64,000 bases of DNA from Actinokineospora pegani (GTDB lineage Bacteria > Actinomycetota > Actinomycetes > Mycobacteriales > Pseudonocardiaceae), in contig NZ_WHOL01000107.1 in the NCBI RefSeq assembly GCF_009745975.1, positions 1-64,000 of the forward strand, given 5' to 3'. Positions 11,112 to 32,532 of this stretch are shown one piece after another. The notes under the pieces were generated by a model that was not told the origin of the DNA, did no database searches, and was given only the letters and a program-made list of their open reading frames with translations. A program made the translations under genes and the position numbers. How positions within the stretch are numbered: position 1 is the first letter of the stretch; every line of letters begins with the position of its first letter.

Positions 11112-12332
11112 CTAGGCCCGCAGGCTCGTCGACGCGGCGAAGACCGCCTGCCAGTCTATCCGGTGGCCGCGGGCGTCCAACCGCGCCAGCGCGGCCAGGA
11201 AAGCGGTGACCTCGTCCGGCTCGGTGTGCAGGGCGGGGACCACCCGGTCCTGCTCGTCGTCGGGCAGGCAGCGGGCCGCCAGCCTGCTGAGCACGCCGCT
11301 GGGGCCGACCTCGACGTACGTGTGGGCGCCCCGGGCCCGAAGGGTGTCCATGATGGACGACCAGCGCACCGGCAGACGGCAGTGCCGGGTCCAGTGGTCG
11401 GGGGTCGCGGCGTCGCCGGGTGGGACGAGGTCTCCGGTGGAGTTGCCGATCAGGGGGATCGTGGCGGGGTGGCTGGGGGCGGCGGCGATGGCGGCGGCCA
11501 GGGCGGGCATGGCCGGGTCGACGGCGGGGGAGTGGTAGGCGTTGCCGACGCCGACGCGGCTGGTGCGCACGTCGCGCGCGGCGAAGTGCTCGGCGATGGC
11601 GGTGATCACCGCCAGCGGTCCGGCGATCGCGACCGACGACGTGTCGTGCACGGCCGACACCGACGCCGCCGTGCCCACCAGGGCGGGGGCGACGACGTCC
11701 TCCGGGGCCTCGATGGCGATCATCCCGCCGCCCGGCGGCAGCGCGTCGAGCAGCAGCCCCCGGTCGGTGACGATGGCCGCGGCGTCCTCCAGCGACCACA
11801 CCCCGGCGGCGGTGGCGGCGATGTACTCGCCGAAGGAGTGGCCGGTCACCACGTCCGGTCGCAGCCCGGCCGCCACGAGCAGTTCGAACAGGCCGATCCC
11901 CAGGCCCAGCAACGACGGCTGGGCGAAGGCGCAGTCGTCGAGGCCCTCGGCGGCGCCCGCGACGACCGCGCGCAGCGGGGTGGGGAGCATCGGGTCGGCC
12001 CGCGCGCACACCCGCGCCACGGCCGCGTCGACCCGCGGGAACTCCAGACCGAGCCGGGCGCCCATGTCGACGCGCTGGCTGCTCTGCCCGGAGAACAGGA
12101 ACGCCACCGGGCCGGGTTCGGGCAGGGGCGCGCACGCCGCGGCGGTGGCGGGCGCGGCGGCCAGGTCATCGGGCCCGTGTGCCAGCAGGACCGCGCGGAA
12201 CCGGTGCTCGGGGCGGGCGCGCGCGGCGAGGGCGCGCCCCAGTGCGGGCAGGTCCCCGGACAGTGATTCCGCCTGGGCCACCAGTTCGGCGGACGTGGGC
12301 GCGCTGAGCACCAGCGGGACCGGGACGCTCAT
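11112..12332 (-). CDS. Stand-alone acyltransferase resembling an excised type I PKS AT domain
   Basis: A 406-residue protein that reads like the post-KS linker plus AT domain of a modular PKS. It begins with a PLVLSAPTSAEL linker, followed by the AT start FLFSGQSSQ (family norm is GQGS/GQGA), the nucleophile in GHSFGEY (Ser166), and a substrate-selectivity segment NAYHS where malonyl ATs have HAFH and methylmalonyl ATs YASH. It would move a malonyl-type or other acyl group from CoA onto an ACP or product. The start is ATG 12332. It faces away from the PKS operon across a 654-bp leader, so it is probably part of the same cluster. The PKS already has its own AT, so an editing, starter or acyl-transfer role is possible. 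Confidence 0.82.
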   Translation of the reverse strand: MSVPVPLVLSAPTSAELVAQAESLSGDLPALGRALAARARPEHRFRAVLLAHGPDDLAAAPATAAACAPLPEPGPVAFLFSGQSSQRVDMGARLGLEFPRVDAAVARVCARADPMLPTPLRAVVAGAAEGLDDCAFAQPSLLGLGIGLFELLVAAGLRPDVVTGHSFGEYIAATAAGVWSLEDAAAIVTDRGLLLDALPPGGGMIAIEAPEDVVAPALVGTAASVSAVHDTSSVAIAGPLAVITAIAEHFAARDVRTSRVGVGNAYHSPAVDPAMPALAAAIAAAPSHPATIPLIGNSTGDLVPPGDAATPDHWTRHCRLPVRWSSIMDTLRARGAHTYVEVGPSGVLSRLAARCLPDDEQDRVVPALHTEPDEVTAFLAALARLDARGHRIDWQAVFAASTSLRA

Positions 12333-12580
12333 GCGGGGACTCCTTCCCGGGCGCGACCGCCCAGCGGGACAAGGGCGAGTGGTGGGCCGGGCAGACGCGG
12401 CCAGGGGCCCCGGAGGAAACGGCGCCAGCGGCGCACGCGCCGATTCCCGGAACGGTCGGCACGGCGGCGCCTGAAGGGCACGCGGAATTCGGTGCGGTGG
12501 GTTCTGACATCGTCCTCACTGCTCGTGACGCGGGCCGCGATGTCATCAACCTAGCGCACGGGTGTGATGTTCCGGTGATA

Positions 12581-12602
12581 GTCCGGCGACGATTCGCCGG
12601 AC
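12581..12602. promoter_or_regulatory. Perfect 9-bp hairpin/palindrome
   Basis: GTCCGGCGA-CGAT-TCGCCGGAC: nine perfect pairs around a four-base loop. It has no T-run, so it is either a protein-binding palindrome or an RNA hairpin in a leader transcript. Confidence 0.5.
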
Positions 12603-12644
12603 CGCCGCCGTTGTTTATCCGTGCGCACCGCGCCGGTGCTGATG

Positions 12645-12691
12645 ATCTTGCCCGATCCGTGGTCGAGCGCGTGCGCCGGGTCGGGCAAGAT
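12645..12691. promoter_or_regulatory. 11-bp inverted repeat with 25-base loop
   Basis: ATCTTGCCCGA at 12645-12655 is matched perfectly by TCGGGCAAGAT at 12681-12691. Three more bases on the inside can pair with one wobble. It lies 40 bases after the previous hairpin, giving tandem strong structures before the biosynthetic operon. An attenuator, a terminator or a large operator are all possible. Confidence 0.5.
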
Positions 12692-12737
12692 TGGCTGCGC
12701 CCAACGTGAGCTGCGGGTTCGGTGGTCAGTGTCTAAC

Positions 12738-12756
12738 CTACCCGGGTGGTGGGTAG
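12738..12756. promoter_or_regulatory. CTACCC / GGGTAG inverted repeat (operator candidate)
   Basis: CTACCC-GGGTGGT-GGGTAG, six perfect pairs, just upstream of the AT-richer patch that could hold the operon promoter. The position suits a repressor or activator site, but no regulator gene is present in the cluster. Confidence 0.35.
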
Positions 12757-12986
12757 CGTCTGATTTGCCGGATATGTACTATCGGCGTCGTCGGTGTCGG
12801 CAGGTCCACGCGGGAGGTGGGGCGGTTCGGGCGGTGGTGCGCTGGGCTTTTCCTCGACCGCTCGGATGGTACGACACCAGTGCCGTCACGTTCCATTCCT
12901 GGCTGTTTCTCGCCCATTGTGTCCCGTGCACCCGAATGCGCCGGCCGCGTTTCCCGACGCCCGCGCGGAATCCGGAGGAGTCGACC

Positions 12987-14543
12987 GTGTCCCCACCGGC
13001 CGACCTGCCCGCTGGCGCGCGCGTCGTCCTCGCGCTGCCCAGCGGCGACCGACTGGCCGAGCTGCTGCTCGACTGCCTCGACCGCGCGCTGGTCGCCGTC
13101 CCGCTCGACCCGCGCACCCCGCCGTCGCGCGTTGCCGAGGTCGTGCGCCGCGTCAGCGCCTCCGCCGTGCTCACCCCGGACGGCGTCGAGCCCACCGGCC
13201 TGCCGCACGAGCACCCCGACGCCGACGGCCTCGCGCTGATCATGTTCACCTCCGGTTCGACGGGTGTCCCCAAGGGCGTGATGCTGCCCAGGGCCGCGGT
13301 GCTGGGCAACGCCGCCAAGACAGCCGCCCTGCACGGCTTCGCGCCCGACCGCCCACACGCGACCTGCCTGCCGCTCTACCACTGCAACGCGCTGGTCATG
13401 TCCCTGGTGGGCACGCACACCACCGGCACGCCGCTGGTCCTGCACCCCGGGTTCGACCCCGCCGCCTACTTCGCCGACCTGCGGGCCAAGGAGGTGCGCA
13501 CGGCCTCGATCGTCCCGGCGATGCTGCCCGACCTGCTCGACTGCGCGCCGCCGTGGCCCGAGAGCCTGGACTACCTCATCACCGCCGCCGCCCCGCTCAC
13601 CGCCGACCTCGCCCGCCGCTTCCACGCGCTCTACGGGCCGAGGCTGCGCCAGGGCTACGGGCTGACCGAGCTGGTCAACTTCTCCTTCACCACACCGCAC
13701 CCCGGCCCTGAGCACTGGGCGGCGGAGTACCTCGACCACTACCCGCCGGTCGGCGCCCCGCTGCCCGGCACGGAGCTGCGGCTGGAGTCCGGCGAGGTCT
13801 GGGTCCGCTCCGCGGACCGGATGCGCGGCTACTGGGAGGACCAGGCGGCCACCGCCGCCGCGCTCACCCCGGACGGCTGGCTGCGCACCGGCGACCTCGG
13901 TGAGCGGCGCGGCGACCTGCTCGTGCTCACCGGTCGCCGCAGCGAGCGCATCGAGCGCGGCGGCGAGAAGCACTACCCGCTGGAGGTGGAGCGCACCTGG
14001 CGCGAGGCGGGGCTGCCCGGCCGGTTCGCCGCCGTCCCGGTGCCGGACGACACCTTCGGCCACGAGATCGGCCTCGTCACCGCCGACACCGACGCGGGCA
14101 CGATCGCCGCCGCCCGCGCCATCGCCGAGGACGGCCCGCTGCGCCCCGCCGCGCTGGCCTTCGGCGCGTTCACCGCGACCGCCACCGGCAAGCCGCAGCG
14201 CACGGCCATGGGCCGCGCGCTGGTGGCGGGCCGGGAGAACCCGAGCCGGTGGAACCGCGCGCTCGACCTCGGCGAGACCGCCGCCCTGCGCGCCGCCGCG
14301 CGGACGGCCCGCGCGCGCCTGGCCGACGAGGTCGTGCGGCGCCTCGGCCACACCGGTCCGGTCCGCGTGGCCGACCCGACGGACCCGAGCCGCGCCCCCG
14401 GCGAGCTGGTCGTCGTCCCGCACGGCCCGGGCCCCGGCCGCTGGGACCTGGTCGAGGCGCTGCGCGCGGACGCGGACGCCGTCGGGACCAGCGCCCTGCG
14501 CGCCGGGCGCCACGACCTGGGCGGGGTCGTCTGGGCCCGGTGA
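12987..14543 (+). CDS. Acyl-CoA/acyl-ACP ligase (ANL superfamily AMP-binding enzyme)
   Basis: A 518-residue adenylate-forming enzyme that activates a carboxylic acid with ATP. It shows A3 FTSGSTGVPKG (residues 87-97), A5 QGYGLTE, A7 WLRTGDL, A8 RRSERIERGGEKHYPLEVE and the A10 lysine in TGKPQR (Lys402). About 115 residues follow A10, rich in Ala, Arg and Pro, without a carrier domain. The N-terminus is slightly shorter than in most relatives. GTG 12987 is supported by GGAGGAG six bases upstream. It is the first gene of the operon and could load a starter acid, activate the PKS product, or act with the KASIII-like protein. The substrate is not predictable by eye. Confidence 0.85.
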   Translation: MSPPADLPAGARVVLALPSGDRLAELLLDCLDRALVAVPLDPRTPPSRVAEVVRRVSASAVLTPDGVEPTGLPHEHPDADGLALIMFTSGSTGVPKGVMLPRAAVLGNAAKTAALHGFAPDRPHATCLPLYHCNALVMSLVGTHTTGTPLVLHPGFDPAAYFADLRAKEVRTASIVPAMLPDLLDCAPPWPESLDYLITAAAPLTADLARRFHALYGPRLRQGYGLTELVNFSFTTPHPGPEHWAAEYLDHYPPVGAPLPGTELRLESGEVWVRSADRMRGYWEDQAATAAALTPDGWLRTGDLGERRGDLLVLTGRRSERIERGGEKHYPLEVERTWREAGLPGRFAAVPVPDDTFGHEIGLVTADTDAGTIAAARAIAEDGPLRPAALAFGAFTATATGKPQRTAMGRALVAGRENPSRWNRALDLGETAALRAAARTARARLADEVVRRLGHTGPVRVADPTDPSRAPGELVVVPHGPGPGRWDLVEALRADADAVGTSALRAGRHDLGGVVWAR

Positions 14544-14601
14544 CGGCCCAGCCCCCGCCAACACCTCCCCGCTCGACCCCGCCGAAGAACGGAGAGCCAC
14601 T

Positions 14602-15173
14602 GTGCCGCACGAGACCCGCCCACCCCACACCGGTGCCCCCGCGCTGAACATCGTCACCTGGGCGGACGCCGAACTCGACGACGAGCGCACCACCCTGCGC
14701 GTCGGCCACGGCCCGCTTCCCTCGGCCATGCACGGCGCGGTCGGCGCGACCGGCCGCGAGCTGGCCACGATCGGCGCGATCGGGGCGGACCTGATCCGGC
14801 TCCCGGCGGGCAGCGGCTTCCAGCCGCACACCCACCCCGGCCACCACGTGCTGACCGTCGTCGGCGGCGTCGGCACGATCACCTACGGCGGCAAGGTCTA
14901 CGAGACCAACGCCGGGCAGACCTACCTCATCGAGGGCGACGTCCCGCACGCCGTCGGCGCCATCACCGACCACGTCATCCTGGCCGTGGGCTCCCCGCAC
15001 ATGCCCGTCGACCACGAGAACCGGATGGCCCCGGTGCCCTACGAGGAGGTCATCGCCCCCGACGGCGACCTGACCTGCCTGATCTGCGCGGTCACCGCCC
15101 TGGCCCCGGCCAAGCTGCACGCCGAGGGCTGCCCGCACTGCCCGTGCGCGACGTGCGTCGGTGTCGCGCCGTG

Positions 15174-15174
<1 letters not shown>
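14602..15174 (+). CDS. Cupin-domain protein with a six-cysteine C-terminal tail
   Basis: A 190-residue protein. The central cupin barrel has the metal motif HTHPGHH (residues 76-82) and a second-motif His in DVPHAVG (His116), so it probably binds Fe, Mn or Ni. The last 35 residues carry C-x2-C (159, 162) and C-x2-C-x-C-x2-C (177, 180, 182, 185), a possible zinc or iron-sulfur site that ordinary cupins lack. GTG 14602 has GGAGAG upstream, and the stop overlaps the PKS start by one base (TGATG). Its place between ligase and PKS suggests a tailoring or accessory enzyme, but the reaction is unknown. Confidence 0.8.
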
Positions 15175-20110
<4,936 letters not shown>

Positions 20111-20114
<4 letters not shown>

Positions 20115-21490
20115 GCAGTCAGACCGCGACCACCGAGGAGCTCTTCGCCGACGACCCGCTGGCCTGGGCGGGCGGGGACTACCGCGCGCTGCACCGGCTC
20201 GGGCAGACCGAGTTGGCCGACCTGCAACTGGCGGCACTGCGGCGGCGGTTCGCCGACCTGCGCGGCGAGCTGGTGGTGCTCGACGCCATGGTGGCCGACA
20301 CCGGTGTCGAGGCGGTCGAGACCCTCGGCGACGTGGTCCCGCTGCTGTTCTCCCCGGAGGTCTACAAGTCCTACCCGGCCTCGCTGCTGCGCCGCAAGCG
20401 GTTCGACGTGCTCACCGGCTGGCTCGGCCGTCTGACCACAGTGGACCTCTCCGGCGCCGGGGCCGCGGCCGCGACCTCCATCGACGACTGGCTCGCCGAC
20501 CTGGACGCCAGCACCGACCTGCGGGTCCAGCACTCGTCGGTCACCTCCGGCACCATGTCGTTCGTCCCGCACACCCACACCGAGGTCGACGCGATGTTCT
20601 CCGTCGTCGGCGCCAGGGTGCGCGGCGGCGGCGACCCGGTGCCGGTGGTGTGGCCGATGATCCGCGAGGGCCGCAGTGGCATCATGCGCTGCGCCGACGC
20701 CCTCGCCGAGCACGTCGCGGGCGGCGAGGCGGGAGTGCACGCCATGCACCCGGGCCGGATGAGCGCCGACGTCATGCTGCTCGCCGGGCAGATCGCCGCC
20801 GCCCGCGCCCGCGGCGAGGACGTCGCCGCCGACCCCGGCCTGCTGGCCCGCCGCGAGGAGTTCGAGACGCTGCGCCGCGAGTCCGAGGCGGCCATGCCCG
20901 GTTTCGTCGAGCGCCTCGCCGACACCCTGCGCGGGCAGCGGGTGTACCTCATGAACACCTGGAACACGCTGCACCAGTTGGCCTCGACCGGGCTCGACCG
21001 CGATCTCCACGGCCTGTTCGCCGCCGACTCGCTCATCGAGCCGGGCGGCGGCACCAAGGGCGCGCACATGCCCGGCGACTGGCAGGACCGGGTGCTGCGG
21101 TTCACCGGGGCCGAGCGGTTGCAGCACATCTACGCGATGACCGAGACCACCGCGCTGCACCCGATGTGCGGCGAAGGCCGCTACCACCTGGAACCGTGGA
21201 CGGTCGCGTTCGTCCTCGACCCGGCCACCGACGAGCCGCTGCCGCGCACCGGCACCCAGACCGGGCGGGGCGCGTTCTTCGACCTGCTCGCCCGCACCCA
21301 CTGGGGCGGTTTCCGGTCCGAGGACCTGGTCACGGTCGCCTACGAGCCCTGCGCGTGCGGCCGGTCCACCCCGCAGGTGCACGACGGCATCCGGCGGCTC
21401 AAGGACGTCGGCGACGTCGACAAGATCAACTGCGCGGCGACCGACTCCGCCCACCGCGCCGCCCTGGACCACCTGAGCGGGGGGTCCTGA
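20111..21490 (+). CDS. LuxE-like acyl-protein synthetase (ANL/PaaK-related)
   Basis: A 459-residue member of the LuxE/PaaK/CoF-synthetase branch of adenylating enzymes. The ATP-binding loop reads HSSVTSGT (about residues 142-149). Further on are GGGTKG (about 314), IYAMTET (the A5 equivalent) and a late CACGR (about 412-416) typical of this branch. LuxE activates a fatty acid as acyl-AMP, holds it on a Cys and passes it to LuxC. The next gene is LuxC-like, so the same partnership is likely, with the PKS product or its free acid as substrate. GTG 20111 overlaps the PKS stop and has GGAAGGA upstream. A phenylacetate-CoA-ligase-like role is the main alternative. Confidence 0.75.
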
Positions 21491-22935
21491 TGGCCCTGAT
21501 GGCCCTAGCGGTCCCCGCCGTCGTCCGCGGCGAGCTGGTCGAGGGCCCGCTGGTCGAGTTCGGCGGCCGCGGCGAGACCGGTTTCGCCGTCGCCGACCCG
21601 GCCGCGGTCGTGCCGCGCCTCGGGACGCGGAACCTGGCGCTGAGCCGGGAACTCGCCGCGCTCGACCTCGATGACATCCTCGACTACCTGGCCGAGCTGG
21701 GCGCCAGGCTCGTCGACAACGGCCACCTGGACGAGGCGGTCGAGCAGTCGGCCGGGCTCGCCGACACCCCGCCGGGGCTGGTCCGCTCGAACTACCGGCT
21801 GCTGCCCGGCCTGTTCACCCGCGAGGCCACCGAGGAGGTCGTCGCCGCGATCGGCCGCGACGTGCTGACCGGCTGGCCCGAGCGGCGGATGGCCGACGGT
21901 CGCACCGGGGCGGTGCGCGCGTTCGGTGTGCGGTCCGCGCACATCATCGCGGGCAACAGCCCGTTGATCGCGGCCATGACGCTGGTCCGCACGGCGGTCA
22001 CGCGCGGCGAAGCGGTCGTCAAGACCCCGTCCAACGACCCGCTGACGATGGTCGCGCTGGCCCGCACGATGATCGACATGGCCCCCGGCCACCCGCTGAC
22101 CCGCGCGGTGTCGGTGGCCTACTGGAAGGGCGGCGACGAGGCGCTGGAACGGCGGCTCTACCACCCGGCCGCGTTCGACAAGATCGTGGCCTGGGGCGGG
22201 ATGGCCTCGGTCAAGCACGTCACGCGCTACCTGGGGCCGGGCCTGGAGCTGGTCACCTTCGACCCCAAGCAGAGCGCGACCGTCCTCGGTCCGGAGGCGT
22301 TCGAGCCGGACGCGCTCGACGACGTCGCGCGCAGGCTCGCGCTGGACGTGGGCGCGTTCAACCAGGTCGGCTGCGTGAACGCCCGGGTCGTCTACGCCGT
22401 GTGCGACACCGGGGCCGCCCAGGACCTCGCCCGCCGCGTCCACGCCGAGCTGCAAGCGCTGCCGCCCACCGTGTCCACCCCGGCCGGGCGGGTCGACACC
22501 GAGCTGCGGGCCAGGCTGCGCGCGCTGCGCACCAGCGGCTTCCACACCGTCGTCGGGGGCAGGGCCGACGAGGGCGCGGTGATCGTCTCGCACCTCGACG
22601 AGCCGGTCGACTTCGCTGGCTCGCTGGCCGGGCGGGTGGCCAACATCGTCCCCGTCGAGACCGCCGAGGACGCCGCCCGGCACCTCGACGCCGCGACCCA
22701 GACCGTCGGGGTGTACCCGGCCGCCCTGCGCCACCGGCTGCGCGAGGTGCTCCCGCTGGTCGGGGTGCAGCGCACGGTCGAGCTGGGCTGCGCGGTCAGC
22801 GTGCACCCGGCGCTGCCGCAGGACGGGTTCGAGCCCGCCCGCCGCCTGGTCCGGTGGGTCACCGACGAGCACCTGCCCGCCGGGTCCGACCCGCTCGACA
22901 TCGTGTTCCCGCCACACCGTGAGGAAAGCCCGTGA
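21490..22935 (+). CDS. LuxC-like acyl-CoA/acyl-protein reductase
   Basis: A 481-residue protein of the LuxC family, related to aldehyde dehydrogenases. The catalytic cysteine sits in NQVGCVNARV (Cys295). Earlier segments SAHIIAGNSPLIAAMTLVRTAVTRGEAVVKTPSNDPLT (residues 155-192) form the nucleotide-binding part, and WGGMASVKH is also typical. It would reduce an activated acyl group with NADPH to an aldehyde. Paired with the LuxE-like enzyme and a PKS lacking a release domain, it is the likely reductive off-loading enzyme. ATG 21490 overlaps the LuxE stop (TGATG) with a G-rich ribosome-binding site. The gene is full length, with no luxAB genes nearby. Confidence 0.85.
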   Translation: MALMALAVPAVVRGELVEGPLVEFGGRGETGFAVADPAAVVPRLGTRNLALSRELAALDLDDILDYLAELGARLVDNGHLDEAVEQSAGLADTPPGLVRSNYRLLPGLFTREATEEVVAAIGRDVLTGWPERRMADGRTGAVRAFGVRSAHIIAGNSPLIAAMTLVRTAVTRGEAVVKTPSNDPLTMVALARTMIDMAPGHPLTRAVSVAYWKGGDEALERRLYHPAAFDKIVAWGGMASVKHVTRYLGPGLELVTFDPKQSATVLGPEAFEPDALDDVARRLALDVGAFNQVGCVNARVVYAVCDTGAAQDLARRVHAELQALPPTVSTPAGRVDTELRARLRALRTSGFHTVVGGRADEGAVIVSHLDEPVDFAGSLAGRVANIVPVETAEDAARHLDAATQTVGVYPAALRHRLREVLPLVGVQRTVELGCAVSVHPALPQDGFEPARRLVRWVTDEHLPAGSDPLDIVFPPHREESP

Positions 22936-23936
22936 TCTGCGTCCGCGCCGTCTCGACCTGGCTGCCCGACACCCGCGAGACCCTCGCCGAGGCCCTGGCC
23001 GACGGCCGGATGACCGACCAGGACGTCGAGCGCTCCGGCTACTCGTCCGTCCCGGTCGCCGGACCCGACCTGCCCGGTCCCGTCCTCGCCGTCAACGCGG
23101 CCCGCGCCGCGCTGGCCGAGTCCGGTGTGGACCCCGCGCGGGTCGGGCTGCTGCTGCACGCCTGGACCGAGTACCAGGGCCACGACCTGTGGTCGCCCCC
23201 GCACTACATCGCCGACCAGGTCGGCGCGGGCGAGGCGCTCCCCATCGGCGTCCGGCAGCTCTCCAACGGCGGGGCCGCCGCGACCGAGCTCGCCGCGAGC
23301 TGGCTGCACGCCCACCCCGACGGCCTGGCGGTGGTGACCACCGGCGACCGGTTCTGCCTGCCCGGCTTCGACCGCTGGCGCTCCGACCGCGGCCTGGTGC
23401 ACGCCGACGCGGGCACCGCGATGGTCCTGGCCGCCACGCCCGGACCTGCGGACGCGCTGCGCCTGCTCGGGATCGCCAGCGCCTCGGCCCCGGAGCTGGA
23501 GGGCATGCACCGCGGCGACGACCCGTTCAGCACCGGCCGCTACGACCAGGGCGCCCCGATCGACCTGGCCCGCACCAAGAAGGCGTTCTTCGCCGCCCAC
23601 ACCCGCGAGGCGTTCACCGGGACCGCCACCGGCAAGGCCAAGCAGGTCGTCACCGAGGCCGCCGAGCGCGCGGGCGTCGCCCTCGACGACCTGCGCCACC
23701 TGCTGCTGCCCCGGATCGGGCGGTTGACCTACGAGCTGTACCGCCCGGTGTTCGGCGAGATCACCACCGCCGAGGTCCTCGACCGCGGCGAGCACACCGG
23801 GCACCTGGGCGCGGGCGACCTGCTCGCCAACCTCGCCGACCTGACCACCCTGCTCGGCCCGGGGGAGAGGGCCGCGGTCTTCAACGGTGGCGGCGGGTAC
23901 ACCTGGACGGCCGTGGTCGTGGAGCGACCCGCATGA
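22932..23936 (+). CDS. KASIII-like protein with substituted catalytic triad
   Basis: A 334-residue thiolase-fold protein of the ketoacyl synthase III family. Where FabH has its Cys in A-C-A-G, this protein reads QLSNGG (Ser111). The His region reads LLLPRIGR with Arg, and the Asn region reads NGGGGYTW with Gly. TTGDRF-x3-GFDRW and GHLGAGD are typical of the actinobacterial KASIII-like proteins found in polyketide clusters, some of which transfer acyl groups instead of condensing them (ChlB3, CerJ and AviN type). Here it may use Ser as nucleophile or act as a non-catalytic gatekeeper. The start overlaps LuxC (GTGA), and the stop overlaps the P450. Confidence 0.8.
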   Translation: MICVRAVSTWLPDTRETLAEALADGRMTDQDVERSGYSSVPVAGPDLPGPVLAVNAARAALAESGVDPARVGLLLHAWTEYQGHDLWSPPHYIADQVGAGEALPIGVRQLSNGGAAATELAASWLHAHPDGLAVVTTGDRFCLPGFDRWRSDRGLVHADAGTAMVLAATPGPADALRLLGIASASAPELEGMHRGDDPFSTGRYDQGAPIDLARTKKAFFAAHTREAFTGTATGKAKQVVTEAAERAGVALDDLRHLLLPRIGRLTYELYRPVFGEITTAEVLDRGEHTGHLGAGDLLANLADLTTLLGPGERAAVFNGGGGYTWTAVVVERPA

Positions 23937-25105
23937 CCGACACCGTGGACCGCCTCGTCGCGCGCTTCGACCACCACGACCCCGAGTTCACCCCCGAGGT
24001 GGCCGCGGCCGTCCACCGGCGGCTGCGCGAGGCAGGCGAGCCCGTGCACTCCGCGGCGCACGGCGGCGTGTGGGTCCTGGCCCGCTACCGGCACGTGTTC
24101 GACGCGCTCAAGGACCACGGGTCGTTCTCGTCGGCGCAGGGCGTGTTCTTCCCGCGCGGCGCCGACCAGCCCAGGTTCGCGCCGCTGGAGTACGACCCGC
24201 CCGAGCACACCGCGTTCCGCTCGCTGATGCGCCCGGCGCTGGCCGCGGCGGCGGTGCGCGCGGTCGAGCCGCGCATCGACCGGTTGGCGGCCGACATCGT
24301 GCGGCCGCTGGTGGCGCGCGGGTCGGCGGACCTGGTGGCGGAGCTGACGACGACGCTGCCGCTGGCGGTGCTGGCCACCACCATCGGGTTCTCCGACACC
24401 GCCCGCGGCGAGATCCTGGAGCTCACCCGCACCACGTGGTCGAAGATGGCCACCGGCGGGCAGTTCTGGCCGCAGTTCGCCGCCCTGCTCGACGCCGAGA
24501 TCGCCCGCGCCCGCCGCGACCACGACGGCACGTACCTGGCCGAGCTGGTCCGCACCGAGGTCGACGGCGCGCCGGTCACCGACGAGCAGTTGCGGGTCAT
24601 GCTCGTCGCGTTCGCCATCGCCGGGCACGAGACCACGATGAACACCACCGGGCACCTGCTCTGGCGCCTGGCCCAGGACCCGGACCTGGCCGCCCGGCTC
24701 GCGCGGGACCCGGGCGCCCGCCCGGCGGCCGTCGACGAGTCGCTGCGGCTGGACGCGCCCGTCGACCACGGCAGCCGGTTCACCACGCGCGACGTCGAGG
24801 TGGGCCGCACGACGATCCCGGCCGGGTCGCGGGTGGTCCTGGCCGTCGGCGCGGCCAACCGCGACCCCGAGCAGTTCGACGACCCGGAGGCGTTCCGGCT
24901 CGACCGGGGCGCGGCCCGGCACCTGTCACTGGGCCAGGGCATCCACTTCTGCCTGGGTGCCCAGCTCGGCCGCAGGCAGATCGTCGCCGTGCTCGACGAG
25001 CTGGCCGCCGCGCCGCCGATGACCCTCGACGGGCCCGTGCACCGGCACTACGCCAACGGCCGCCACCTCAACCTCGCCGCCCTGCCGGTGCGGTGGGGCG
25101 GGTGA
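23933..25105 (+). CDS. Cytochrome P450 (tailoring hydroxylase)
   Basis: A 390-residue bacterial class I P450. The I-helix reads AIAGHETT (about residue 229), ExxR is DESLR, and the haem-binding loop is LGQGIHFCLG with Cys340. The soluble form needs a separate ferredoxin and reductase, and none is encoded in the cluster. It likely hydroxylates or otherwise oxidises the polyketide intermediate. ATG 23933 overlaps the KASIII stop (ATGA), and the stop overlaps the transporter start. The longer frame extending upstream is a shadow through the preceding gene. Confidence 0.9.
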   Translation: MTDTVDRLVARFDHHDPEFTPEVAAAVHRRLREAGEPVHSAAHGGVWVLARYRHVFDALKDHGSFSSAQGVFFPRGADQPRFAPLEYDPPEHTAFRSLMRPALAAAAVRAVEPRIDRLAADIVRPLVARGSADLVAELTTTLPLAVLATTIGFSDTARGEILELTRTTWSKMATGGQFWPQFAALLDAEIARARRDHDGTYLAELVRTEVDGAPVTDEQLRVMLVAFAIAGHETTMNTTGHLLWRLAQDPDLAARLARDPGARPAAVDESLRLDAPVDHGSRFTTRDVEVGRTTIPAGSRVVLAVGAANRDPEQFDDPEAFRLDRGAARHLSLGQGIHFCLGAQLGRRQIVAVLDELAAAPPMTLDGPVHRHYANGRHLNLAALPVRWGG

Positions 25106-26328
25106 GGAACGGCCGGAATGGACTGGTCTGGCCGGTCGCGCTGTGCGCGGCCGGGCTGGTCTTCGACGGGTACGACCTGGTCGTCTACGGCGCGCTGGTG
25201 CCGCTGTTCCTGCGCTCGCCCGGCGAGATCGGGGCGCTGACCCCCGCCACGGCCGGGGCGCTGGGCAGCTACGCCCTCATCGGGGTGCTGATCGGCGCGC
25301 TGGCCGCGGGCGCGGTGTCGGACCGGTGGGGGCGGCGGCCGGTGCTGCTGGGCGGGTACGCGTGGTTCTCCGTGGGCATGGGCGCGACCGCGCTGACCTC
25401 GTCGGCGCAGGCGTTCGGGGCGTGGCGGCTGGTGACCGGAGTCGGGATCGGGGTCGTCGTGGCCACGACCGGGGTGCTGGTGTCCGAGCTGGCGCCGCCG
25501 GGGCGCAGGCAGCTCTGCACGACGGTCGCGTACTGCGGCATCCCGCTCGGCAGTGTCCTGGGCACGGTCGCCGCGCTGTCCTTCTTGGACTCGATCGGCT
25601 GGCGGGGGCTGTTCTGGATCGGGGCGCTGCCGCTGGTGACGTTGCTGCCGCTGGCGTGGTGGCGGTTGCCGGAGTCGCCCGCGTGGCGCGGACGGGAGCG
25701 GGGGCGGTCCGGGTTCGCCGGGTTGTTCACCGGTCCGACGCTGCTGCCCGCGGTGGTGCTCGGCGTGGTGAGCGGGATCGGGTTGCTGCTGGTGTTCGCG
25801 CTGAGCACCTGGCTGCCGGAGCTGATGGGGCGGGCCGGGTTCGGCTCGCGCGGATCGCTGGTGCTGCTGCTGGTGCTCAACGGCGGCGCGGTCGTCGGGG
25901 CGCTGCTGGCCTCGCCGCTGGCGGAGCGGTTCGGCCCCCGGCGGGTGGTGGCGGGCTGCTTCGGGCTCGGCGCGGCGGGCATGGTCCTGGTGGGCTCGCA
26001 GCCCTCCGCCGCCGTGGTGCCGGTGCTGGTCGCGGTCGTGGGGTTGGGCACGACCGGCACGCAGATCCTGGTGATCGGGCTGGCCACCGCGACCTTCCCC
26101 ACCGCCGTGCGCGGGGCGGGCGTGGCCTGGTGCACCGGCTTCGGGCGGCTCGGCGGGATCGCTGGGCCGCTGGTCGTCGGGCTGCTCGTCGCGGCCGGGG
26201 CGGGTGTCGAGTCGCTGTTCACCGTGCTGGCGGTGGTCGCCGCCGTCGGCGCGGGACTGGTCCTGCTGGTCAGACCCGGTCGAGCCGCTCCTCGAACGCC
26301 GTCTCCCGTGCCAGCGCCGCACACGTGA
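25102..26328 (+). CDS. MFS transporter, AAHS-like, probable product exporter
   Basis: A 408-residue 12-helix transporter. The first loop shows FDGYDLVVYG, characteristic of the aromatic acid:H+ symporter family, and DRWGRRPV in loop 2-3 is the MFS signature. Members import aromatic acids, but as the last gene of a biosynthetic operon it more likely exports the product or an aromatic intermediate. This would fit an aromatic polyketide. GTG 25102 overlaps the P450 stop. The 3' end overlaps the convergent MHS permease gene by 59 bases. Confidence 0.85.
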   Translation: MRNGRNGLVWPVALCAAGLVFDGYDLVVYGALVPLFLRSPGEIGALTPATAGALGSYALIGVLIGALAAGAVSDRWGRRPVLLGGYAWFSVGMGATALTSSAQAFGAWRLVTGVGIGVVVATTGVLVSELAPPGRRQLCTTVAYCGIPLGSVLGTVAALSFLDSIGWRGLFWIGALPLVTLLPLAWWRLPESPAWRGRERGRSGFAGLFTGPTLLPAVVLGVVSGIGLLLVFALSTWLPELMGRAGFGSRGSLVLLLVLNGGAVVGALLASPLAERFGPRRVVAGCFGLGAAGMVLVGSQPSAAVVPVLVAVVGLGTTGTQILVIGLATATFPTAVRGAGVAWCTGFGRLGGIAGPLVVGLLVAAGAGVESLFTVLAVVAAVGAGLVLLVRPGRAAPRTPSPVPAPHT

Positions 26329-27568
26329 TCGTCACCGCCGCCAGGCCCGCGTAGTACAGCAGCACCCACCACGGCCGCCCGTCGCCCGCCAGCACCAGCG
26401 CCGCGGCGATCAGCGGCGTGAACCCGCCCGCGAGCACCGACCCGATCTGGTAGCCCAGCGACACCCCGCTGTAGCGCAGGTGCAGCGGGAACAGCTCGGA
26501 GAACCACGCGGGCTGCCCGGCCGCCATGGCGTCGAAGAACACGCTCGTGGCCAACACCATCGCCAGCACGATGAGCACAGTGGACCCGGTGTCGACGGCG
26601 AGGAAGAACAGGGCCAACGCGGCGACAGCGCCCACGGCCCCGAACAGGTAGGGCCGTTTGCGCCCGAACTTGTCCGTGAGCCTGCCCCACACCAGCGTCG
26701 TGCCGATCGAGAGCGCCGAGGACACCACCACCGCGATCAGCCCGGCGTCGCTGTCCTCGCCGAGGTTGGTGGAGATGTAGGTGAGGCCGTAGGTGGTGAG
26801 CATGACGTAGAGGCCGATCTGCGACAGCCGCAGACCCGTCGTCAGCAGGACCGGGACCGGCGCCGCGCGCAGCACCTCCAGGACCGGCAGGCGGGCGACC
26901 CCGTCGCTGTCGCGCAGCCGCTGGAACTCCGGGGCGTCCTGCAACCGCAACCGCACCGCCAGGCCGACGCCGACCAGGACGATGCTGAGCAGGAAGGGCA
27001 GCCGCCACGCCCACGCCAGGAACGCCTCGGGCCCGGCCGCCGTCCGCGTGGCCCAGAACACGCCCGTCGCCAGCAGCATGCCCGCCGGGGAGCCGATCTG
27101 GGTGAAGCCGCCGAACCAGCCGCGCCTGCCCGGCGGCGCGTGCTCGACGGACAGGATCGCCGCGCCGCCCCACTCCGCGCCGACCGCGAGCCCCTGCAAC
27201 GTGCGCAGGACGACCAGCAGCGTCGGGGCGAGCACGCCGATCGTCGCGTAGGTGGGCAGCAGGCCGATCAGCGTGCTGGCGCCGCCCATCAGCAGCAGCG
27301 CCCCGACCAGGACGGCCTTGCGCCCGATCCGGTCGCCGAGGTGCCCGGCGACCACCGCGCCGATCGGCCGCGCGCCGAACCCGGCGGCGAACGTCGCGAA
27401 CGCCGCCAGCGTCCCCGTCGCCGGGTCGACCGAGGAGAAGAACAGCTTGTTGAACACCAGCGCCGAGGCCGTGGCGTAGAGGTAGAAGTCGTACCACTCG
27501 ATCGTCGTCCCGATCGCGCTCGCGAACGCCACCCGCCTGGGCGTCCGCGCCGTGGAGCTCCCCGACAC
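26270..27568 (-). CDS. MFS permease of the metabolite:H+ symporter (MHS) family
   Basis: A 432-residue transporter with 12 predicted helices. It starts with the MHS hallmark ASAIGTTIEWYDFYLYATA, followed by GHLGDRIGRKAVL and a second-half GRLTDKFGRKRPY motif. Family members (ShiA, KgtP, ProP type) take up organic acids or osmolytes with protons, and the substrate is not predictable. The start is ATG 27568. It runs against the biosynthetic operon with 59 bases of 3' overlap, so membership of the cluster is uncertain. An 11-bp inverted repeat lies in its upstream region. Confidence 0.87.
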   Translation of the reverse strand: MSGSSTARTPRRVAFASAIGTTIEWYDFYLYATASALVFNKLFFSSVDPATGTLAAFATFAAGFGARPIGAVVAGHLGDRIGRKAVLVGALLLMGGASTLIGLLPTYATIGVLAPTLLVVLRTLQGLAVGAEWGGAAILSVEHAPPGRRGWFGGFTQIGSPAGMLLATGVFWATRTAAGPEAFLAWAWRLPFLLSIVLVGVGLAVRLRLQDAPEFQRLRDSDGVARLPVLEVLRAAPVPVLLTTGLRLSQIGLYVMLTTYGLTYISTNLGEDSDAGLIAVVVSSALSIGTTLVWGRLTDKFGRKRPYLFGAVGAVAALALFFLAVDTGSTVLIVLAMVLATSVFFDAMAAGQPAWFSELFPLHLRYSGVSLGYQIGSVLAGGFTPLIAAALVLAGDGRPWWVLLYYAGLAAVTITCAALARETAFEERLDRV

Positions 27569-28626: not shown

Positions 28627-28671
28627 ATGGTCGACGACCGCGGTTCCCGCTGCCCGGCGCCTCCCCGGTGA
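28627..28671 (+). CDS. 14-codon leader ORF coupled to btuC
   Basis: ATG 28627 follows GAGGAG (28615-28620) at six bases and reads MVDDRGSRCPAPPR. Its TGA at 28669-28671 overlaps the GTG start of the permease gene (GTGA). This is the only good ribosome-binding site between riboswitch and permease, so ribosomes may reach the permease by termination-reinitiation. The riboswitch would then gate the leader ORF and not the permease directly. An ATG at 28621 in the same frame is too close to the GAGGAG. Confidence 0.45.
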   Translation: MVDDRGSRCPAPPR

Positions 28672-29693
28672 GGTTGCGCGTCGGCGCCACCGTCCTCGTC
28701 CTGGCGGTGCTGCTCGGCCTGAGCATCGTGGTGTCCACCGCCTTCGGCGCGGAGCAGCTCCCCCTCGGCTCGGTCGCCAGGGTGCTGTGGGCCCGCGCCT
28801 GCGGCTGCGTCACCACGGACCTGGCCTCGGACACGATCGTCTGGCAGTTCCGCGCCCCCCGGGTGCTGCTCGCCGTCCTGGTGGGCGCCGGGCTGGCGCT
28901 GGCGGGCGTGGGCATGCAGACCCTGGTGCGCAACCCGCTCGCCGACCCGTACCTGCTCGGCGTGTCCTCCGGCGCCGGGGTCGGCGCCTCGGCGGTGCTC
29001 ACCATGGGGCTGTTCGCCTCCGCCGGGATCTACGCCCTGACCGCGGGCGCGCTCGTCGGGGCGCTGGCGGCGGCGCTGGTCGTGTTCGGCGTGGCCACCG
29101 TCCAGGGCGGGCTGACACCGCTGCGGCTGGTGCTGACCGGGACCGTGCTCGGCTCGGCGTTCTCCGCGCTGGCCAGCTACCTGGTCTTCCGCAGCCCCGA
29201 CCCGGCCGCGGCGCAGTCGGTGCTGTTCTGGCTGCTGGGCAGCCTCGCGGGCGCGGGGTGGCAGCAGCTCGTCCTCCCGGCCACCGCCGTGGCGGTGGTC
29301 GGGGTGCTGATGTTGCTGGGCAGCCGGTGGCTCGACGCGCTGCTGATCGGGCCGGAGACCGCCTCGGCGGTCGGCGTCCCGGTGCGGCAGGTGCGGATCA
29401 CCCTGTTCGTGGCGCTGGGGGTGCTGGTCGGCGTGCTGGTCGCGGTCTCCGGCGGCATCGGGTTCGTCGGGCTGGTCGTCCCGCACGCCGCCCGGCTGCT
29501 CGTCGGGCCGCGGCACCGCTCGCTGCTGCCGGTCGCGGCCGTGCTCGGGGCGCTGTTCCTGGTGTGGGTCGACGTGGTCACCCGCATCGCCGTGCGGCCG
29601 ACGGAGATCCCGCTGAGCGTGGTCTCCGGGCTCATCGGCGCCCCGGCCTTCCTCGCCCTGCTGGGCAGGCGCCGCTACCGGTTCGGCTCGTGA
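28668..29693 (+). CDS. btuC: Vitamin B12 ABC transporter permease
   Basis: A 341-residue FecCD/BtuC-family permease with about ten helices. Typical motifs are FRAPRVLLAVLVGAGLALAGVGMQ (residues 61-84), NPLADPYLLGVSSGAG and GFVGLVVPHAARLLVGPRHR. It forms the membrane channel for cobalamin. GTG 28668 gives the usual N-terminal basic stretch (RLRVG). It has no ribosome-binding site of its own except the coupled leader ORF. The stop overlaps the ATPase start by four bases. Assignment to B12, and not a siderophore, rests on the upstream cobalamin riboswitch. Confidence 0.88.
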   Translation: MRLRVGATVLVLAVLLGLSIVVSTAFGAEQLPLGSVARVLWARACGCVTTDLASDTIVWQFRAPRVLLAVLVGAGLALAGVGMQTLVRNPLADPYLLGVSSGAGVGASAVLTMGLFASAGIYALTAGALVGALAAALVVFGVATVQGGLTPLRLVLTGTVLGSAFSALASYLVFRSPDPAAAQSVLFWLLGSLAGAGWQQLVLPATAVAVVGVLMLLGSRWLDALLIGPETASAVGVPVRQVRITLFVALGVLVGVLVAVSGGIGFVGLVVPHAARLLVGPRHRSLLPVAAVLGALFLVWVDVVTRIAVRPTEIPLSVVSGLIGAPAFLALLGRRRYRFGS

Positions 29694-30460
29694 GCGGCCT
29701 CGAGGTGGCGGCGCTGACCTGCGCCGTCGGCCGCCGGACCGTGCTCACGGACGTCACCTTCGACGTCGCGGCCGGGCAGGTCGTCGGCGTCGTCGGCCCC
29801 AACGGCAGCGGCAAGTCGACGCTGTTGCGCGCGCTGGCGGGCATCGCCAAGCCCCCGGTCGGCCGGGTGCTGGTGGCGGGGGAGGACCTGCACCGGCTGC
29901 CCGCCCGCGCACGGGCGCGGCGGGTGGCGTTCGTCGGCCAGGAGGAAGACCTGCCGTCCGGGCTGCTCGTCGAGGAGGCCGTCGCCCTCGGCCGCGTCCC
30001 CCACACCGCGCCCTGGGACACCGACGCCGCCGACCTGCCCGTCGTCCACGGCGCGCTCGCCGCCGTCGGGCTGTCCGACCTGGCCCGGCGGCCGGTGGAG
30101 GACCTCTCCGGCGGCGAGCGGCGCCGGGTGTCGCTGGCCAGGGGACTGGCCCAGGCCAGCCCCGTCCTGGTGCTCGACGAGCCGACCAACCACCTCGACG
30201 TGCGCCACCAACTGCACTTCGCCCACCTGCTGCGCGGCCTCGGCCGGACCGTCGTCGTCGCGCTGCACGACCTGTCCCTGGCGGTGGCGACCTGCGACCG
30301 CCTCGTCGTCGTCCACGGCGGGCGGACCACCACCGCGCTGCCCCCGGCCGAGGCGCTCGCCCCCGACGTCGTGCGCTCGGCGTTCGGCGTCACCGCCACC
30401 CCCGTGACCGACCCGGCCACCGGCCGGACGCACCTGCTCATGTCCCTGGAGGACCTGTGA
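29690..30460 (+). CDS. btuD: Vitamin B12 ABC transporter ATP-binding protein
   Basis: A 256-residue ATPase of the BtuD/FepC family. It has Walker A GPNGSGKST (residues 37-45), Q-loop AFVGQEE, signature DLSGGERRR, Walker B VLVLDEP with TNHLDVRHQ, and switch His in ALHDLSLA. It powers cobalamin import with the BtuC-type permease and the lipoprotein encoded on either side. The start GTG 29690 overlaps the permease stop, and the stop overlaps the binding-protein start, so the three proteins are translationally linked. Confidence 0.9.
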   Translation: MSGLEVAALTCAVGRRTVLTDVTFDVAAGQVVGVVGPNGSGKSTLLRALAGIAKPPVGRVLVAGEDLHRLPARARARRVAFVGQEEDLPSGLLVEEAVALGRVPHTAPWDTDAADLPVVHGALAAVGLSDLARRPVEDLSGGERRRVSLARGLAQASPVLVLDEPTNHLDVRHQLHFAHLLRGLGRTVVVALHDLSLAVATCDRLVVVHGGRTTTALPPAEALAPDVVRSAFGVTATPVTDPATGRTHLLMSLEDL

Positions 30461-31482
30461 ACCGCATCCCAGCCCTGCTCGCCTGCGCCCTGGCGCTCAC
30501 CGCCTGCGGGACGGCGCCGACCGCGGAGCCCGCGGCCGCCAAGACCACGGTCACCAACTGCGGCGAGGAGGGCGAGTTCCCCGCGCCCGCCCAGCGCCTG
30601 TTCGTCAACGACGGCAACATGATCGCGATGGTGCTGGCCCTCGGCGCCCAGGACCGGGTCGCCGCCGTGTCCAGCCTGCAGCGCGACGCCCCGACCCTGC
30701 GCGCGCACTACGGCGCCGCCGTGGACGCGCTCAAGCAGGTCGCGCCCGAGTACCCGGCCAAGGAGACCGTCGTCGCGCAGAACCCGGACGTCATGGTCGC
30801 CGGGTGGAACTACGGCTACAGCGAGGAGAAGGGGCTCACCCCCGACACCCTGCGCGCCCAGGGCATCGCCCCCTACATCCTCACCGAGAGCTGCAGGCAG
30901 ACCGACGGCGAGAAGGCCCGTGGCGTCGTCGACCCGTGGGAGGCCCTGCGCACCGACCTGGCCAACCTGGGCACGATCACCGCCACCAAGCCCAAGGCCG
31001 ACGAGGTGCTCGCCGACCTCGACACCCGCCTCGCCGCCCTGCGCGCGGCCCCGCGGGCGGCCACCCCGCCGACGGTGTTCCTGTTCGACAGCGCCAGCGA
31101 CACCGTCTACTCCAGCGGCCGCTTCGGCGCCCCGCACGCCATCCTCGACGCCGCGGGCGCCCGCAACGCGTTGGCCGACCTCGACGACACCTGGACGGCC
31201 GTGTCCTGGGAGCGCGTGGCCGCGGCCAACCCGGCCGCTTTCCTGTTCGTCGACTACCCGCCGCAAACCTTCCGGCAGAAGGTCGAGCTGCTCACCAGCC
31301 GCCCCGGCATCTCCGAGCTGCCCGCGGTCGAGGAACGGCGCTTCCTGAACCTGCCCTACGCCCTGTGGACCAGCTCCCCGCTCAACATCGACGCCGCCGA
31401 GCAGGTCCGCGCCGCCCTGGAGAAGTGGAACCTGGTCCCCGCCTCCGAGATCGAGCCCCGCGCCGACGACGAGGTGGGGTAG
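30457..31482 (+). CDS. btuF: Vitamin B12-binding lipoprotein
   Basis: A 341-residue substrate-binding protein. A short signal sequence ends in the lipobox LTAC (Cys17), so it is tethered outside the membrane. The body has the two-lobe class III binding-protein pattern: NDGNMIAMVLALGAQDRVAAVSS in lobe one, VVAQNPDVMVAGWNYG before the linker helix, and VFLFDSASDT in lobe two. It delivers cobalamin or cobinamide to BtuCD. GTG 30457 overlaps the ATPase stop. The gene ends the riboswitch-controlled operon, and no terminator hairpin is obvious after it. Confidence 0.87.
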   Translation: MNRIPALLACALALTACGTAPTAEPAAAKTTVTNCGEEGEFPAPAQRLFVNDGNMIAMVLALGAQDRVAAVSSLQRDAPTLRAHYGAAVDALKQVAPEYPAKETVVAQNPDVMVAGWNYGYSEEKGLTPDTLRAQGIAPYILTESCRQTDGEKARGVVDPWEALRTDLANLGTITATKPKADEVLADLDTRLAALRAAPRAATPPTVFLFDSASDTVYSSGRFGAPHAILDAAGARNALADLDDTWTAVSWERVAAANPAAFLFVDYPPQTFRQKVELLTSRPGISELPAVEERRFLNLPYALWTSSPLNIDAAEQVRAALEKWNLVPASEIEPRADDEVG

Positions 31483-32374: not shown

Positions 32375-32532
32375 CGCCGGTGTCCACAACATCCGGTGCG
32401 GCCATCGCGGACAGCGGCTCACGAGACGCGGCCCGGCGACACCGTCCGTTACGGTGGCGTTCACTCGCCCGTGCGATGCGGTGCCCGGCCGGCGGATTGC
32501 CGCGCCTGACGCGCTCAGCCATCTTTACCGGC

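Follow-up and report, generated by a model that had tools for sequence, protein, structure and literature searches.

A nine-gene cluster of Actinokineospora pegani appears to direct the synthesis of an aromatic polyketide with a sulfonamide group, by way of an aryl aldehyde, a reading that we hold at about even chances, with every reaction and product in it predicted. The cluster occupies positions 11112–26328 of the window, by which we mean the whole 64,000-nt stretch of contig NZ_WHOL01000107.1 that was analyzed. It combines an SbzM-like cupin and an AMP-forming ligase with a type I polyketide synthase (PKS), a LuxE/LuxC-like pair, a KASIII-like protein, a cytochrome P450, an MFS exporter and a stand-alone acyltransferase (AT). 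Below, loci with this gene set are called full type, and loci with PKS, LuxE, LuxC and P450 core type. A preliminary description of the stretch had given the same coordinates, which are correct, and had described eight nearly gapless genes with an AT facing away from them. This layout was borne out: the eight plus-strand genes, from ligase to exporter, meet at seven joints of 58, −1, −4, −1, −4, −4 and −4 bp (start codons being a choice among candidate starts), and 654 bp separate the ligase from the divergent AT on the minus strand. Among named relatives, Actinokineospora spheciospongiae EG49 comes closest to this region, with orthologues of all nine genes at 92–96% amino acid identity; the ratio of nonsynonymous to synonymous substitution rates (dN/dS, 0.19–0.36) points to purifying selection, and therefore none of the nine looks decayed. 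The A. pegani genome (6.44 Mb in 128 contigs) contains a single LuxC-family match and a single LuxE match, both in the cluster.

The cupin matched the PDB entry 9UG7 over its full length, with 185 of 190 residues identical (hand count of the alignment). The entry was released on 2026-03-04 under the title 'Structure of sulfonamide synthase SbzM from Actinokineospora mzabensis'. This identity comes from the sequence match; the fold model of the cupin was poor (pLDDT 36). According to excerpts of the cited papers, the form in which each paper given here by its PMC number is represented, Streptomyces SbzM converts L-cysteine to 2-sulfamoylacetaldehyde (PMC6331615), and the aldehyde dehydrogenase SbzJ oxidizes this aldehyde to the acid (PMC6331615; PMC9113183). 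By its sequence the cupin would be an SbzM-type sulfonamide synthase with the same predicted activity. The preliminary description was right about the iterative-type PKS that lacks a release domain and about the LuxE/LuxC pair, but it missed the probable sulfonamide role of what it called simply a cupin, and of the ligase next to it.

At E 1e-20, SbzM-like cupins were found in 10 of 392 Streptomyces genomes and in 14 of 297 genomes of the A. pegani family, four of the 14 being full type. A ligase 50–67% identical to that of the window adjoins the cupin in 13 of the 20 SbzM-like loci outside the full type (L189–L192, L213 and L215–L222); in L221 it is in two pieces, with 50% and 38% identity. 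This argues that the ligase is tied to the cupin and not to LuxE and, given an SbzM-type cupin with its habitual partner, that some of the genes in the cluster are devoted to a sulfonamide unit. An aldehyde dehydrogenase, searched for with a query from L192 (PF00171) and not with SbzJ itself, was present in seven of the 20 loci, and one locus had both ligase and dehydrogenase. As side observations, a nonribosomal peptide synthetase adjoins the ligase–cupin pair in both loci tested by Pfam (L213 and L217), and the ligases of these pairs are extended far beyond the C-terminus of the window ligase, where the extension is shortened; in L219 it has a weak match to a methyltransferase.

We also considered whether LuxE and LuxC might interconvert sulfamoylacetate and its aldehyde within the sulfonamide branch, unrelated to the polyketide. 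LuxC is a member of the aldehyde dehydrogenase superfamily, and the cluster is without the dehydrogenase of other SbzM loci, which would suit such a role. However, a LuxE–LuxC pair accompanies the PKS in seven core-type loci and in Actinokineospora bangkokensis, all without an SbzM match, while the 20 other SbzM-like loci (10–20 kb each) gave no match to the KS, LuxE or LuxC of the window. We therefore judge this explanation to be very unlikely.

The PKS had been described as iterative in type and without a release domain, and both points agree with our results. Pfam gave the domain order KS-AT-DH-KR-ACP with no thioesterase or reductase release domain, and there is no thioesterase among the nine genes. 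The best PDB match of the DH domain was 7vwk (E 1e-37; the next match, 8e-5), which assigns the enzyme to the 6-methylsalicylate (6-MSA)/AviM type. In the excerpts of PMC9135731, 7VWK is the product-template domain of AviM, an orsellinate synthase that has no thioesterase domain. Since a KR is present in a PKS of AviM-like DH type, a 6-methylsalicylate-like product is the natural guess. Judging from this type and from the aryl-acid ligases of sibling loci, the single module is probably used iteratively to make an aromatic acid. Catalytic residues (KS Cys-His-His, AT Ser and His, DH His and Asp, KR Ser-Tyr-Asn, ACP Ser) were conserved wherever the domain was present in 12 rows of Lux-linked loci, as were the LuxE, LuxC and P450 cysteines.

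Comparison with related PKSs suggests what LuxE does. A search of the 297 family genomes with the AviM-type DH gave matches in 49, and from the upper part of this match list 14 sibling PKS loci were picked by hand; all 14 were searched by tblastn, and gene lists were made for seven. Nine of them carry a 2,3-dihydroxybenzoate/salicylate-type AMP ligase (tblastn, at least 429 bits), versus none of 12 LuxE loci, of which L038 spans 6.3 kb and L025 ends at 20 kb. For the five sibling ligases tested, the best NCBIfam model was (2,3-dihydroxybenzoyl)adenylate synthase, at 567–620 bits and under its cut-off of 724. Three of the remaining siblings have a KASIII without such a ligase and two have neither, and no LuxE or LuxC match was found in any of the 14. 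The presence of LuxE in 12 of 12 LuxE loci is by construction, whereas its absence from the siblings and the absence of the ligase from the LuxE loci are not. These counts indicate that LuxE occupies the place of the aryl-acid ligase of the relatives.

The LuxC assignment is strong, with 138 bits against PF05893 (cut-off 21) and Photobacterium LuxC as the sole PDB match at E 0.01; against the stricter NCBIfam LuxC equivalog it reached 127 bits, under the cut-off of 750. For the LuxE-like protein the best PDB match of its profile was the LuxE of the Photobacterium LuxC–LuxE complex, a weak match (E 8e-5). The protein gave no Pfam or NCBIfam match at E 0.001 and no Pfam LuxE model even at E 10, Pfam AMP-binding appearing at E 0.012 only; two core-type relatives likewise had no match at E 0.01. 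It does have a LuxE-related adenylating fold with a cysteine near the C-terminus (Cys441), and the pair proposed in the preliminary description is thus supported, strongly for LuxC and by a weak profile match for LuxE. Among the nine cluster proteins we found no luciferase (PF00296) at E 0.001 and no LuxD match.

Both the ATP-binding loop and the C-terminal cysteine of LuxE were kept in 12 of 12 PKS-linked rows, as was Cys295 of LuxC. As LuxE belongs to the adenylating enzymes and keeps a C-terminal cysteine, its substrate is more likely to be a free aryl acid than an ACP thioester. The alternative is that LuxC takes the acyl group directly from the ACP of the PKS, a reductive release in trans with LuxE as partner or salvage enzyme. 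The lack of a release domain and of a thioesterase gene would suit direct transfer, and the gene overlaps suggest tight coupling, but the conserved LuxE features would then be needless, LuxE kin occur in many loci without a PKS match, and an acid-activating ligase is found in nine of the 14 sibling loci. We regard direct release as quite unlikely. The comparative evidence, namely LuxE at the place of the sibling ligase and a fusion of LuxC with the P450, is consistent with reduction of the polyketide by LuxE and LuxC.

In Streptomyces ochraceiscleroticus (884 residues; L037:11368-14022) and S. fumigatiscleroticus (880 residues; L041:11428-14070), LuxC and the P450 form one open frame, which links the P450 to the LuxC product. 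Moreover, a P450 of this family directly follows LuxC, or LuxC plus KASIII, in 12 of 12 LuxE loci. The same linkage would fit an aldehyde-removing pair, in which the P450 deformylates or oxidizes the aldehyde to leave a phenol or hydroquinone without it. The P450 motifs are ordinary, apart from a Glu-to-Gln substitution in L037; no deformylase is named among the 11 PDB matches to the P450 at E 1e-40, and ring hydroxylation would account for the linkage equally well. We consider removal of the aldehyde doubtful, and retain a pathway in which the P450 acts on the aldehyde or a derivative.

A scan of named genomes with a LuxE alignment confirmed 121 loci, of which the best 80 were analyzed. PKS domains lie beside LuxE in nine of these 80, two full-type and seven core-type. 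The full-type loci of this set are in A. spheciospongiae and A. bangkokensis, with the KASIII gene between LuxC and P450; A. bangkokensis has the same gene order minus the cupin. The core set, PKS-LuxE-LuxC-P450, was found in S. ochraceiscleroticus, S. fumigatiscleroticus, S. nymphaeiformis, Nocardia coubleae, N. ignorata, Frankia CiP1 (where the contig ends inside the PKS) and a second locus of A. spheciospongiae. Two ant-associated Pseudonocardia, HH130629-09 (pLS1-1) and HH130630-07, also carry the full type on plasmids, in the same order with an extra MFS gene between AT and ligase; on the former plasmid it lies amid transposase and toxin–antitoxin genes. Altogether there are five full-type loci, one without the cupin, and seven core loci in four genera (Streptomyces, Nocardia, Frankia and Actinokineospora). 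A conserved block in several genera, an outcome that the preliminary description had named as support for its proposal, was thus found, with the full type in Actinokineospora and Pseudonocardia, and we rejected chance neighborhood of LuxE/LuxC and PKS because the set recurs in this way.

The full type is rare: five of the 297 family genomes, A. pegani included, have a LuxE of at least 77% identity. In PLSDB, the DH matched nothing beyond these two Pseudonocardia plasmids and a single record from Nonomuraea. When the S. ochraceiscleroticus LuxE was compared with 392 Streptomyces genomes, 14 matched at E 1e-60 and only its own exceeded 38% identity; at four of the 13 non-self matches (L129–L132), genes for transporter, thiolase-like and dehydrogenase proteins adjoin, judged from translations, and no PKS was seen. 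A quick tree without bootstrap was made from the 69 of 88 loci with a usable adjacent LuxE–LuxC pair (in the locus names used here, L021/L035, L023/L036, L024/L133 and L026/L043 each denote one place). The PKS-linked pairs, including the cut Frankia pair, formed one clade of 12 of the 69 rows with a Shimodaira–Hasegawa-like approximate likelihood ratio test (SH-aLRT) support of 100, which splits into full and core type; L038 was scored as without PKS because its contig is cut.

Relatives of the pair also occur apart from PKSs. An aldo/keto reductase match (at least 41%) was present at 16 of the best 80 of 121 LuxE loci. LuxE–LuxC with an aldo/keto reductase and without PKS was seen in proteobacteria and actinobacteria, in some cases with two pairs (L047, L052, L053, L055–L057, L059, L063, L065, L066, L071, L079, L088, L096, L103 and L113), and perhaps constitutes a general acid-to-alcohol module. 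Many LuxE/LuxC kin are likely general catabolic acid reductases, which would not explain the PKS-linked clade. Further relatives lie on metagenome-assembled contigs of Hodarchaeota and Heimdallarchaeota (L064, L086 and L089). On a plasmid of an ant-associated Pseudonocardia (L133, NZ_CP011869.1 167593-198948), the full-type cluster is flanked next to the AT by an additional aldo/keto reductase and MFS gene, with transposases and toxin–antitoxin genes around.

We next consider how the sulfonamide unit might join the polyketide. The KASIII profile matched DpsC (4xs7) best, at E 3.5e-61, followed by CerJ (E 6.7e-40) and ChlB3 (E 9.2e-36). Ser111 stands at the nucleophile place, and His291 aligns with DpsC His297 (hand count of the alignment). 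We rejected the idea that KASIII is a dead pseudo-enzyme with a Cys-to-Ser change, since DpsC, a solved relative, also has Ser there, although DpsC His266 is replaced in KASIII. Daunorubicin biosynthesis uses DpsC together with an AT, DpsD. The stand-alone AT is kept, at 92% identity in A. spheciospongiae, 59% in A. bangkokensis and 47% in Pseudonocardia pLS1-1, and KASIII and AT may together load the starter. The active sites of the relatives are Ser-His-His in DpsC (Ser, His266, His297) and Cys113-His296-Asp301 in ChlB3, both according to excerpts of PMC9573744, and His291-Asp296 of KASIII may be the counterpart of the ChlB3 His296-Asp301 pair. This residue pattern makes acyl transfer likelier than condensation.

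Alternatively, an acetate-primed PKS could make a 6-methylsalicylate-type acid that LuxE/LuxC reduce, with the sulfamoylacetyl group made apart and attached at a late stage, through an amide or ester bond, by ligase and KASIII. The seven core loci, in the sequence at hand, have no SbzM, ligase or KASIII match, showing that PKS and reductases work without a special starter, and CerJ and ChlB3 are acyltransferases that act after chain assembly (excerpts of PMC9573744). Yet KASIII scores best to a starter enzyme and shares its Ser nucleophile, and apart from the phenol the cluster would make no obvious amine or hydroxyl acceptor. Late attachment is therefore a possibility that we hold only tentatively.

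With the sulfonamide entering as starter, the pathway could run as follows. The cupin would convert L-cysteine to 2-sulfamoylacetaldehyde, its identity resting on sequence, and a housekeeping aldehyde dehydrogenase, none having been found in the cluster, would oxidize this to 2-sulfamoylacetate. The ligase would activate the acid, and the DpsC-like KASIII, the AT or both would load it on the PKS. The PKS would extend the starter with malonyl units and close the chain, as in 6-methylsalicylate formation, to a salicylate-like acid, and the acid would leave the ACP by hydrolysis, as with the thioesterase-less AviM and orsellinate. LuxE would then adenylate the acid, carry it on Cys441 and pass it to Cys295 of LuxC, which would reduce it to the aldehyde; the P450 would act next, and the MFS protein would export the product. 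A more specific version, which we think rather unlikely, is that a sulfamoylacetate primer yields 6-(sulfamoylmethyl)salicylic acid and that the LuxE/LuxC-derived aldehyde, lying ortho, closes on the sulfonamide nitrogen to give a six-membered cyclic N-sulfonyl imine (a hydroxy-1H-2,3-benzothiazine 2,2-dioxide) that the P450 tailors, with LuxE-LuxC-P450 a portable acid-reducing cassette replacing the aryl-acid ligase.

Several observations weigh against this overall scheme. The four full-type loci tested gave no match to the aldehyde dehydrogenase of the other SbzM loci, and A. bangkokensis has no SbzM in its cluster or genome (E 1e-8; genome 98% complete). Because A. bangkokensis keeps the cluster minus SbzM, ligase, KASIII and AT can persist without a sulfonamide, which speaks against a fixed need for it. 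In KASIII, the place of DpsC His266 is taken by Arg261, invariant in five of five KASIII sequences, so the DpsC Ser-His-His triad is incomplete. The LuxE-like profile matched the PaaK-type 4r1l at E 2e-4, barely worse than LuxE, and odd letter composition was flagged for several rows of the LuxE–LuxC tree, the window included. In a LuxE-only tree, an orphan LuxE of Virgisporangium aliadipatigenens (L051:9974-11317; 48% identical to that of the window) fell inside the PKS-linked clade (98–99, on a long branch). Its 21 kb gave no PKS, LuxC or P450 match, none lying within 10 kb of LuxE, and lacking LuxC it is absent from the 69-pair tree; the tie between LuxE and PKS is thus strong but not absolute. 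Finally, the PKS tree does not parallel the LuxE–LuxC tree: a single clade of Lux-linked PKSs was rejected (approximately unbiased test, p 9e-5). The full-type PKSs are sister (100/100) to four non-Lux loci with KASIII and aryl ligase, one of which, L168, has a carrier protein (Pfam), and the core-type group has a support of only 83/90. Strict co-inheritance of PKS and LuxE-LuxC was therefore not supported; in this unrooted tree, the pattern fits equally a transfer of the LuxE-LuxC-P450 genes to a different PKS and their loss or replacement in the siblings.

We compared the cluster with known systems. The SB-203208/altemicidin (sbz) genes share the SbzM cupin family, a sulfonamide from L-cysteine and AMP ligases, but those named in the excerpts of PMC6331615 and PMC9113183 include no PKS, whereas here there is PKS-LuxE-LuxC-P450 and no such aldehyde dehydrogenase was found. 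Section 6 of the 2021 review PMC9113183 reports that SbzM homologues lie in clusters together with a PKS and an AMP ligase, Actinokineospora and Pseudonocardia being among the genera listed, and the clusters of its Fig. 7B are very likely of the type seen here. Neither the word reductase nor LuxC occurs in the excerpted text of the review, which assigns these clusters neither a product nor a mechanism. The luxCDE fatty acid reductase shares adjacent LuxC and LuxE relatives with conserved cysteines; the cluster differs in its LuxE-LuxC order, in lacking LuxD and luciferase matches among its nine genes and in having a PKS instead of a fatty acid supply. GriC and GriD of grixazone biosynthesis are presumably homologous to LuxE and LuxC. 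In that Streptomyces pathway two proteins convert an aromatic acid to an aldehyde (excerpts of PMC10179220), as LuxE and LuxC would do here, but no PKS takes part. DpsC, the daunorubicin starter enzyme, is the best PDB relative of KASIII and shares the Ser nucleophile and the His297 equivalent, but it differs at His266 and the PKS here is type I. The ChlB1 and polyketomycin gene sets include a 6-MSA/orsellinate-type PKS. Together with AviM they share with the cluster this PKS type, and a KASIII-like neighbor in the case of ChlB3 (excerpts of PMC9573744); these systems pass the aryl unit on as an acyl group, whereas here an acid-reducing pair is present.

Among the papers listed by searches of an open-licence library we recognized none describing this route or a LuxE/LuxC–PKS cluster, and the cluster goes unmentioned in excerpts of two papers, one on the A. 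bangkokensis genome and one on actinospene. Neither a cluster with the same genes and a reduction-free product nor proof that LuxE/LuxC are unrelated to PKS release was found in the material searched. Sulfonamides are rare among natural products, and as of the 2021 review, in its excerpted text (PMC9113183), SbzM–PKS clusters had yielded no known example. If the proposal is right, it shows a cysteine-derived sulfonamide entering polyketide chemistry and adds to the ligases and KSIII transferases a third way of handling aromatic PKS acids, a Lux-type two-protein reductase. Since the cassette is small, is found in named strains of Streptomyces and Actinokineospora and has natural LuxC–P450 fusions, its steps are testable with purified proteins.

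Table. Genes of the cluster, with positions in the window, strand and supporting match
Gene product	Positions	Strand	Evidence or remark
Stand-alone AT, 406 aa	11112..12332	-	PF00698, 138 bits; candidate starter loading/editing partner
AMP-forming ligase, SbzM-associated family	12987..14543	+	PF00501, 153 bits; start GTG 12987, GGAGGAG upstream
SbzM-type cupin, predicted sulfonamide synthase	14602..15174	+	phmmer to 9ug7_A, E 1.3e-124
Type I PKS, 1646 aa, KS-AT-DH-KR-ACP, aromatic-iterative, 6-MSA/AviM-like	15174..20114	+	Pfam domains; DH to 7vwk
LuxE-like acyl-adenylating enzyme, 459 aa, conserved C-terminal Cys441	20111..21490	+	profile match to LuxE
LuxC acyl reductase, 481 aa, conserved Cys295	21490..22935	+	PF05893; 7xc6_A, E 1.9e-52
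KASIII-like acyltransferase, closest to DpsC; Ser111, His291, Asp296, Arg261	22932..23936	+	profile match to DpsC 4xs7
Cytochrome P450, heme Cys and AGHETT helix motif	23933..25105	+	PF00067
MFS exporter	25102..26328	+	PF07690; nearest aromatic acid/H+ symport family TIGR00895, 221 bits, below cut-off 419

A protein of about 200 residues with EF-hands is encoded directly upstream of the PKS in six of the seven core-type genomes (L037:3945-4583, L039:4445-4990, L041:3717-4319, L042:3933-4532 and L026:4161-4745, the last identical to L043; the sixth is N. ignorata). These proteins are 57–65% identical to the A. spheciospongiae one, and none was found in Frankia. It is possible that this protein acts as a calcium switch or carrier for the pathway. 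In three full-type genomes without a core locus, a search with the core-type protein gave nothing above 36%; in the window, an EF-hand-like protein at 32476-33054, outside the cluster, is 31% identical to it. Closer to the cluster, a second MFS transporter (26270-27532, minus strand) converges on its end, with a similar gene in the same place in A. spheciospongiae, and an ABC uptake operon of iron-siderophore type (28668-31482; FecCD permease, ATPase and periplasmic binding protein) lies downstream.

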